Source: Pseudacidovorax sp. RU35E (GTDB lineage Bacteria > Pseudomonadota > Gammaproteobacteria > Burkholderiales > Burkholderiaceae_C). Taken from it: 64,000 nucleotides of DNA. Positions 21,796 through 23,148 of this stretch are shown piece after piece (position 1 is the first letter of the stretch; each line of letters opens with the position of its first letter). The position numbers were made by a program, and so were the translations under genes. The stretch spans positions 62,001 to 126,000 of the forward strand of contig NZ_FTMY01000006.1 in assembly GCF_900156165.1 (NCBI RefSeq), read 5' to 3'. The notes under the pieces are model-generated. The model worked only from the letters and a program-made list of their open reading frames with translations. It was not told where the DNA came from and did not search any database.

Positions 21796-21801
21796 TACAA
21801 T
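21796..21801 (+). promoter_or_regulatory. -10 box for the asd leader
   Basis: TACAAT is a near-consensus -10. A start site about 7 nt downstream would place the first base at or within 2 nt of the leader ATG at 21810, so the leader peptide would be translated from an almost leaderless mRNA. No convincing -35 is seen. Confidence 0.5.
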
Positions 21802-21809
21802 CGCGCCCC

Positions 21810-21911
21810 ATGTTTGTCGCCCGCCCGTTCGCCCTGAACACCGTGCCTGCCGCCCTGGCCAGCACCGCGCGCGCATCCATCACCAAAACCACGACGACCA
21901 TTAAGGGCTGA
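21810..21911 (+). CDS. putative Thr/Ile/Lys-rich leader peptide upstream of asd
   Basis: A 33-codon ORF starting ATG TTT GTC and ending in the run [14 protein letters not shown]. Seven of the 33 residues are threonine, five of them in codons 25-30, with Ile and Lys alternating around them. Thr, Ile and Lys are all end products of the aspartate pathway whose second enzyme is encoded just downstream. This composition resembles the thr operon leader of E. coli in kind but not in sequence. The last three codons (AAG GGC TGA) are the outer 5' arm of a long hairpin. It has no visible Shine-Dalgarno. Function as a leader is inference. Confidence 0.55.
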
Positions 21912-22011
21912 CCCAGCCTGGTTCGTCGCGCGTGCCTTCCCCCTGGCCCCGGACGAGCCAGGCGGGCCAGCCCCTTCGCCGCGGTCTTCTTTGTATGACT
22001 CTGAAAGGGCT
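21903..22011 (+). promoter_or_regulatory. candidate translational attenuator of asd
   Basis: Bases 21903-21927 pair with 21952-21976 in an almost continuous stem of about 23 bp. The inner 12 bp are GCCTGGTTCGTC (21916-21927) against GACGAGCCAGGC (21952-21963), then CCC/GGG, then AAGGGCTG against CAGCCC-C-TT. The stem contains the leader stop codon. AAGGGCT recurs at 22005-22011 as the asd ribosome-binding site. The 3' arm AGCCCCTT (21969-21976) can therefore pair either with the leader end or with the asd Shine-Dalgarno, but not both. No U-run follows, so control would act on translation rather than termination. Confidence 0.5.
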
Positions 22012-22017
22012 TTTGAA

Positions 22018-23148
22018 ATGAGCAAGTTGGTAGGTTTGGTCGGCTGGCGCGGCATGGTCGGCTCGGTCCTGATGGATCGCATGGTGGCCGAGAAGGATTT
22101 CGACCTGATCGAGCCGCTGTTCTTCTCCACCTCGAACGCCGGCGGCAAGGCACCCGCCATGGCCAAGAACGAGACCACGCTGCAGGATGCCTTCGACATC
22201 GCGCAGCTCAAGCGCTGCGAGATCATCATCACGGCCCAGGGCGGCGACTACACCACCGAAGTCTTTCCCAAGCTGCGCGCCGCTGGCTGGAACGGCCACT
22301 GGATCGACGCCGCCTCCACCCTGCGCATGAAGGACGACGCCGTCATCGTGCTCGACCCGGTCAACATGCCGATCATCAAGAACGCTTTGTCCGATGGCGG
22401 CCGCAACTGGATCGGCGGCAACTGCACCGTCAGCTGCATGCTGATGGGCGTCGGCGCGCTCTACAAGGCGGGTCTGGTCGAGTGGATGAGCACGCAGACG
22501 TACCAAGCGGCATCGGGCGGCGGCGCGCAGCACATGCGCGAGCTGCTGACGCAGTACGGCACGCTCTATTCGGAGGTGAAGTCCCTGCTGGATGATCCGA
22601 AGAGCGCCATCCTGGAGATCGACCGCCAGGTCATCGCCAGGCAGCGCAGCCTCTCTGGCGACGAGACGGCCAACTTCGGCGTGCCCCTGGGCGGTTCGCT
22701 GATCCCCTGGATCGACAAGGACCTGGGCAACGGCATGTCCAAGGAAGAGTGGAAGGGCATGGCCGAGACCAACAAGATCCTCGGCCAGGGCGAAGGCTTC
22801 GGCAGCGCTGCCGTGCCCGTGGATGGCTTCTGCGTGCGCGTGGGCGCCATGCGCTGCCACAGCCAGGCGCTGACCTTCAAGCTCAAGAAGGACGTGCCCT
22901 TGGCCGACATCGAGGCCATGATCGCGGCCGACAACGACTGGGTGAAGGTCGTGCCCAATACGCGTGAGGCCACCCTCAAGGACCTGACGCCCGTGGCTGT
23001 CACCGGCACGATGACCATTCCCGTCGGTCGGCTGCGCAAGATGGCGATGGGCCCTGAGTACCTGGGCGCCTTTACCATCGGCGACCAGCTGCTGTGGGGC
23101 GCTGCCGAGCCGCTGCGCCGCATGCTGCGCATCCTTTTGGACGCGTAA
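22018..23148 (+). CDS. asd: aspartate-semialdehyde dehydrogenase
   Basis: Reduces aspartyl phosphate to the semialdehyde, the branch point to lysine/diaminopimelate, threonine and methionine. It has 376 residues. The NADP loop [11 protein letters not shown] is at residues 8-18, the catalytic Cys136 lies in IGGNCTVSC, and [13 protein letters not shown] holds the conserved substrate Arg and His. It is the Gram-negative type. The start is the ATG at 22018, with AAAGGG 8 nt upstream; this site can be masked by the leader structure described at 21903-22011. Confidence 0.98.

Follow-up and report, generated by a model that had tools for sequence, protein, structure and literature searches.

The 64,000-nucleotide stretch analysed here (the window) carries, in order on the forward strand, leuB, a hairpin, a TACAAT box, an ORF of 33 codons upstream of asd (the uORF), a structured spacer and asd. 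The features of the leuB-asd interval are as follows.

20630..21700, + strand: leuB (3-isopropylmalate dehydrogenase; Pfam Iso_dh), with a C-terminus lacking a Thr tail
21744..21771, unstranded: hairpin of 12 bp, GCAAAACGGCCC/GGGCCGTTTTGC, found by eye
21796..21801, + strand: -10 box TACAAT, 8 nt 5' of the uORF ATG
21810..21911, + strand: leader ORF (uORF), 33 codons, ATG at 21810-21812 and stop codon TGA at 21909-21911
21879..21905, + strand: putative sensor codons I24 T25 K26 T27-T30 I31 K32, assigned from tail composition
21905..21919, + strand: P1, hairpin over the stop codon, 21905-21910 with 21914-21919, from the swap test and pair counts
21916..21963, + strand: P2, putative anti-sequestor of 12 bp, 21916-21927 with 21952-21963
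21942..21962, + strand: P3, hairpin, 21942-21947 with 21957-21962, competing with P2 for one 3' arm
21934..21938, + strand: site of the family-wide anti-SD, here a degenerate GCCTT able to pair with 22006-22010
21969..21978, + strand: genus-specific anti-SD AGCCCCTTCG, partner of the SD region 22002-22011 or of the uORF end
22004..22009, + strand: predicted asd Shine-Dalgarno (SD) AAAGGG, from the sequence
22018..23148, + strand: asd (aspartate-semialdehyde dehydrogenase; Pfam Semialdhyde_dh), ATG at 22018

The hairpin at 21744-21771 has an A-run and a T-run within its stem and lies between leuB and the asd promoter. It is a probable bidirectional terminator of leuB that would set this gene apart from the asd promoter, and it was not flagged in a terminator scan of 21400-22300.

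The first-pass annotation had described a Thr-rich leader ORF and a stem before asd, and this observation is confirmed. The stem (21903-21927 with 21952-21976) is present as 8 + 3 + 12 bp with bulges, and folds at -50.8 kcal/mol compared with -30.6 +/- 3.2 kcal/mol for shuffled sequences (z -6.27; 0/200 as low). The entire 235-nt leader folds slightly below its shuffles (z -1.58; 9/200 as low), and the folding signal sits in the stem, not in the whole leader. The sequence also contains the second copy of AAGGGCT in the asd SD region (22005-22011), and AGCCCCTT (21969-21976) can pair with either copy as had been proposed, with duplex energies of -9.2 kcal/mol for the ORF end and -11.3 kcal/mol for the SD region.

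In order to follow the leader ORF among relatives, we assembled 224 asd loci, including that of the window and some near-copies, from the 80 top loci among a longer list of asd relatives, 15 genomes of the window's genus and a sample of its GTDB family (150 genomes, asd in 147). A tail was scored loosely when the last 12 residues of an ORF ending 55-170 nt before asd included two or more Thr and, in total, five or more Thr/Ile/Lys/Met. Such a tail was found at 197/224 loci, at 1/224 reverse complements and in 2.1% of shuffles. A strict version of the tail was found at 190/224 loci and in none of the 224 reverse complements, with a shuffled rate of 0.000; hence the predicted conservation of the Thr/Ile/Lys run holds in relatives. 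In 189 of the 197 tail loci, 60-122 nt lie between the stop codon and the asd ATG. Three loci (L139, L061 and L078) have tails with a longer spacer of 132-150 nt.

Synthesis of Lys, Met, Thr and Ile requires Asd. The uORF tails (n=53) consist of 48% T, 20% I and 10% K and the LeuB tails described below (n=61) of 47% T, 21% I, 16% K and 2% M, against a background of 5, 5, 5 and 4% for T, I, K and M, an enrichment that is in part a product of the selection criterion. Codon choice is also unusual. Within the tails Ile is encoded by ATT in 60% of cases, compared with 15%, and Lys by AAA in 80%, compared with 18.5%; both codons are preferred in the tails and rare in leuB and asd of the same 114 non-redundant loci. 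An ORF end enriched in codons for the products of the pathway, a hallmark of attenuators, is thus seen both in the composition and in the strict tail counts.

A separate leader ORF, the form of sensor originally proposed, accounts for 115 of the 197 tail loci. In the other 82 the tail is a C-terminal extension of LeuB itself, reaching 10-26 residues (median 13) beyond the LeuB motif MG.AV, and in these loci the sensor would be the LeuB C-terminus; L190, L200 and L206, for example, are weak members of this group. The MG.AV motif is present in 82/82 LeuB tails and in none of the 115 other tail loci, and neither MG.AV nor the LeuB motif WSEG was found in the uORFs (0/115). A near-leaderless start of the uORF, which had been suggested from the TACAAT box, is predicted in relatives too: of the 112 uORF loci (among 115) that fall within the spacing range, 105 have a TACAAT-like box matching at 5 or more of 6 positions 6-10 nt before an in-frame ATG and 91 have a perfect box, although the best ATG and spacing were picked for each locus, so that the weaker matches are inflated. 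We estimate that a perfect TACAAT would occur by chance in well under 1% of cases. The arrangement in the window predicts a leaderless uORF mRNA with its ATG 8 nt after the -10 box.

Among named records, LeuB tails occur in Roseateles, Paucibacter, Rubrivivax, Ideonella and some Hydrogenophaga, and uORFs in Acidovorax, Limnohabitans, Simplicispira, Diaphorobacter, Rhodoferax and other Hydrogenophaga. The family genomes (L096-L224) have a tail at 106/129 loci, 56 of them in LeuB and 50 as a uORF. Both forms are found within the window's GTDB genus, where 9/15 genomes have the uORF and 6/15 the LeuB tail. On an Asd tree of 123 rows at least 10 changes of label between uORF and LeuB tail are needed, although the strongly supported branches force only one change per group, which leaves the number of exchanges uncertain. 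Within the window's genus the genomes with a LeuB tail group in a separate clade, and lineages may therefore also have exchanged the region. Two loci from records titled Akkermansia and Singulisphaera (L009 and L038) group with Limnohabitans and other Comamonadaceae in the same tree and are probably mislabelled MAGs.

The RNA between the tail and asd was examined in an alignment of the tail loci. The 197 loci were reduced to 189 with 60-122 nt spacing and to 115 after removal of redundancy; L204 was then taken out by hand (114 left) and L145 for poor anchors (113 left). For each proposed helix, native pairing partners were compared with partners swapped between loci (2000 permutations, n=113). 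Four helices had lower native energies, with 0/2000 permutations as low in each case: P1 (-8.32 native versus -7.65 kcal/mol swapped), P2 (-19.59 versus -18.15 kcal/mol), P3 (-13.88 versus -12.99 kcal/mol) and P5 (-10.07 versus -9.30 kcal/mol). Four other pairings fail this test, with 1980, 129, 827 and 171 of 2000 permutations as low, the values of 129 and 171 being near the edge. The first of these is the pairing of the ORF end with the SD, which shows no native excess, and the AAGGGCT repeat is rejected as a family-wide feature; pairing of the ORF end with region 3 (827) likewise has no native excess. A further A/U-rich hairpin before the SD, P4, was recognised by eye and in folds.

In P1 the final sense codon and the stop codon are matched with the bases just after them, and P2 pairs a (GC)CCGGTTCGTC-like sequence with a GACGAGCCGG-like one; in the window's genus P2 is lengthened by pairing of 21903-21910 with 21968-21976. 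In P1 and P2 together 87.2% of the alignment cells are paired, compared with at most 43.3% in versions slid along the alignment. Double-change cells number 19 compared with 6.8 in shuffles (0/500), but slid versions hold similar counts (26 at -1, 20 at +3), so the percentage paired carries more weight; pair types are no more numerous than in shuffles (309/500). P3 has 87.4% of its cells paired (slid versions at most 53.3%) and 12 double-change cells compared with 5.0 (0/500), while its count of doubly changed pairs is not above shuffles (209/500). Counted from the first base of the stop codon, P2 begins 6-8 nt downstream in 96/113 loci. P2 and P3 have a common 3' arm. They are thus mutually exclusive helices, placed such that P2 would be blocked by a ribosome at the stop codon. 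Computationally, conservation extends to sensor, promoter box and helices, and P2 and P3 exclude one another.

The last residue of the tail (G, S, R or T) tracks its RNA partner, as in GCGC-TAA-GCGC (L038) and AGACC-TAG-CGTCT (L079). At columns 34-46, which join the last sense codon to its P1 partner, we counted 41 GU, 18 AU, 10 GC and 2 CG pairs and 8 unpaired cases. This dependence of the protein on the RNA speaks against a reading in which selection acts on the LeuB tail as protein, the uORF being a remnant of such a tail that senses nothing. That an identical kind of tail is found in LeuB at 82 loci would suit such a history. The uORFs, however, lack the LeuB motifs and mostly have their own -10 box, and in 27 of the 87 out-of-family loci leuB precedes asd in 26, none of these LeuB proteins having a tail. 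We give this explanation almost no weight.

Family-wide, the anti-SD is a CGCCC/GCGCCC-like sequence inside the P2 loop, and P5 is its predicted pairing with the asd SD. It has at least 5 contiguous pairs in 86/113 loci, while 29.5% of other sequence windows pair as long, and its variants include TCGCCC:GGGCGA, ACGCCC:GGGCGT and GTGCGCC:GGCGCAT. In the MAFFT register 59.7% of P5 cells are paired and a slide of -2 gives 57.8% with more double changes; since two registers exist, the count from the MAFFT alignment is uninformative and the swap test is the better evidence. P5 is the least secure of the helices. The alternative pairing through AGCCCCTT that had been proposed for the window is found in its nearest relatives (10/197 tail loci), the CGCCC-like sequence taking this place in the family at large. 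In these ten loci, which represent nine genomes and one duplicate record, the AGCCCCTTCG/SD duplex has energies of -11.3 to -13.5 kcal/mol (10/10), with too little variation in the arm among relatives for covariation. The AGCCCCTT/AGCCCCTTCG arm is absent from the other 187/197 tail loci, save for a looser AGTCCC in L166 (-8.8 kcal/mol) and L214 (-6.8 kcal/mol).

Folding was compared for two states, one with a ribosome at the stop codon and one with a ribosome stalled at the Thr codons. Free folding of 114 loci with 40 nt of asd gave mean SD accessibilities that were alike in both states (0.397, 0.413), with changes greater than 0.2 upward in 20 loci and downward in 18. Conditional folding and helix probabilities were run after this null average. 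With the ribosome at the stop codon the mean probability was 0.82 for P3 and 0.02 for P2. In the Thr stall the P2 probability was 0.44 overall, 0.70 for uORF loci and 0.21 for LeuB-tail loci. At equilibrium only 46/113 loci switch from P2 to P3, 64 never favouring P2 and 3 always doing so; among LeuB-tail loci only 13/60 switch. Because a masked P2 arm necessarily reduces P2, the informative results are that the energies of the P2 and P3 forms are near equal (mean difference 0.81 kcal/mol; P2 lower in 52/113) and that the SD is less paired when P2 is forced. The SD was unpaired with probability 0.507 under forced P2 versus 0.276 under P3 with the ribosome at the stop codon, and forcing P2 raised SD accessibility by more than 0.1 in 79/113 loci and lowered it in 13/113.

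In the window itself the predicted folds follow the model. P2 has a probability of 0.999 in the Thr stall and 0.19 at the stop codon, where P3 reaches 0.70, and in free folding SD accessibility is 0.21 at the stop codon and 0.61 in the stall. Forced helices give a weaker shift, from 0.22 to 0.37 with P2. The switch logic of the first-pass annotation is supported, in that a ribosome at the stop codon would disrupt the P2 stem and a stalled ribosome would leave it intact. The stall had been placed at Thr25-Thr30; by footprint arithmetic in the window only stalls at T25-T28 fit the exact version, since a ribosome held at T29, T30, I31 or K32 would cover the AAGGGC copy.

Our preferred reading, to which we assign a probability of about 0.75, is that the asd leader is a ribosome-mediated translational attenuator responding to shortage of aspartate-family amino acids. 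Thr would be sensed first, with Ile and Lys also sensed, and Met in some species. When the sensor codons are read freely, a ribosome at the stop codon would cover the start of the P2 5' arm; with P2 blocked, P3 would form and the anti-SD strand would hide the asd ribosome site. If the ribosome were instead held at these codons, the P2 arm would stay free, so that P2 forms, P3 is lost, the anti-SD strand is withdrawn and asd is translated. As sensor, the window would use a small leaderless ORF that has its own promoter, and some other loci an extension at the LeuB C-terminus, the RNA that follows being the same in both cases. Translation of the tail thus probably sets the amount of Asd. The change in asd output, the relevant tRNA and the direction of regulation are inferences.

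The same leader could have a transcriptional output, the transcript ending before asd, by intrinsic or Rho-dependent termination, whenever P2 does not form. Known amino-acid attenuators with leader peptides are mostly transcriptional, and in many relatives P4 is followed, by eye, by T-rich stretches. However, the first-pass annotation had noted that no U-run follows, and this is borne out: an intrinsic terminator was sought and none was detected in the window between 21400 and 22300, and relatives have 7/114 terminator-like sites versus 5.0 expected. The SD-masking helix P5, furthermore, beats its swaps. We reject intrinsic termination, though not a Rho-dependent end. The lack of an intrinsic terminator argues for translational control of asd, and we consider the mechanism likely to be translational and a transcriptional output unlikely.

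A further explanation would have the tail and its stop codon boost asd initiation, through termination-reinitiation or as a ribosome antenna, with the amino-acid bias being non-regulatory. Leader ORFs near genes have been proposed to raise initiation (PMC4833913), and P1 does span the stop codon. The 60-122 nt that separate the stop codon from the asd ATG in nearly all tail loci count against it, and it explains neither why two proteins without relation to each other share a bias towards T, I, K (and M) nor why P2 and P3 compete. We regard it as highly improbable.

The LeuB-tail form is the surprising part. On balance we favour the view that the LeuB C-terminal tail is itself an attenuator sensor of Thr/Ile/Lys/Met supply that sets asd translation, and that the cassette has moved between enzyme tail and leaderless mini-gene, both forms being present within one GTDB genus. 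If this is correct, an enzyme's own C-terminus can act as a leader peptide, and gene tails annotated as plain protein could conceal regulators. The occurrence of a tail or a leaderless ORF over the same RNA would provide a natural experiment on the origin and movement of attenuators. Asd, from which the routes to Lys, Met, Thr and Ile diverge, gains a candidate cis-acting control, which would cover most sampled genera of one large betaproteobacterial family (106/129 loci).

Elements of this scheme are known from other systems. In thrL, the leader of the enterobacterial thr operon, runs of Thr and Ile codons lie before aspartate-pathway genes and the RNA forms mutually exclusive helices; this leader is located before thrABC, starts translation from an SD and works by terminating transcription. 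The asd leader shares with it a Thr/Ile-rich leader peptide, an aspartate-pathway gene next to it and exclusive helices, but differs in having no terminator, a leaderless start or a LeuB C-terminus as sensor, and no Rfam match. In erm-type attenuators a ribosome stalled in a leader ORF frees a downstream SD by helix exchange. Stall-driven release of the SD is common to these and our model, but their arrest is induced by a drug and not, as proposed here, by amino-acid shortage. In SecM-secA, a ribosome arrested close to the end of one gene exposes the SD of the gene that follows, as we propose for asd; SecM is arrested through contacts between peptide and tunnel and has no enzymatic role, whereas in the asd system a metabolic enzyme can be encoded upstream and the signal is presumed to be codon supply.

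PMC3766115 lists the Thr leader as Rfam RF00506; the only attenuators it names from Rfam at that time are the His, Trp, Thr and Leu leaders, which it ties to gammaproteobacteria. When the window was searched against Rfam between 20000 and 24000 (E up to 5), the leader had no match; two sub-threshold matches, to families other than the Thr leader, fell within leuB. In 10 relatives there were 0 matches (E up to 0.5). The LEU element of Actinobacteria differs from the asd leader in being a pseudoknot whose base stem joins the Leu codon run to the leuA SD, in its gene and in its bacterial group (PMC1262725). In the literature searched we found no report of an asd attenuator in these bacteria, and a prior prediction is possible. 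The attenuator-like element of asd is real and widespread, and unnamed as far as this literature goes.

Collectively the tail filter left 27 of the 224 loci without a tail. A covariance model of the RNA, R1, matches five of these (L191, L081, L178, L119 and L192; E 5e-4 or better), L039 is an incomplete locus, and 21 remain without the element. In L119 the RNA model matches before asd (E 2e-5) although its LeuB has no Thr tail, and this element is perhaps decaying. In the window's own genome R1 (E up to 1) matches only at the asd site, with no further copies.

Beyond the family an asd match, in some cases a distant one, was present in 115 genomes, and 87 loci of the order were considered from these. 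Of the 87, 82 have leuB upstream, with a median gap of 54 nt. A search with R1 in 120 genomes of the order found 3 matches, these being the genomes of the window's family, under strict filters that lose weak matches such as L254 (E 1e-3 elsewhere). An ORF end rich in T/I/K/M occurs in 3/87 loci (L254, L301 and L308), all of one family (f14), and a weaker Thr/Ile/Lys-rich ORF in L235 of another (f32). The leader ORFs of these four loci end 74-88 nt before asd and encode unlike peptides; they would be either convergent or very diverged versions.
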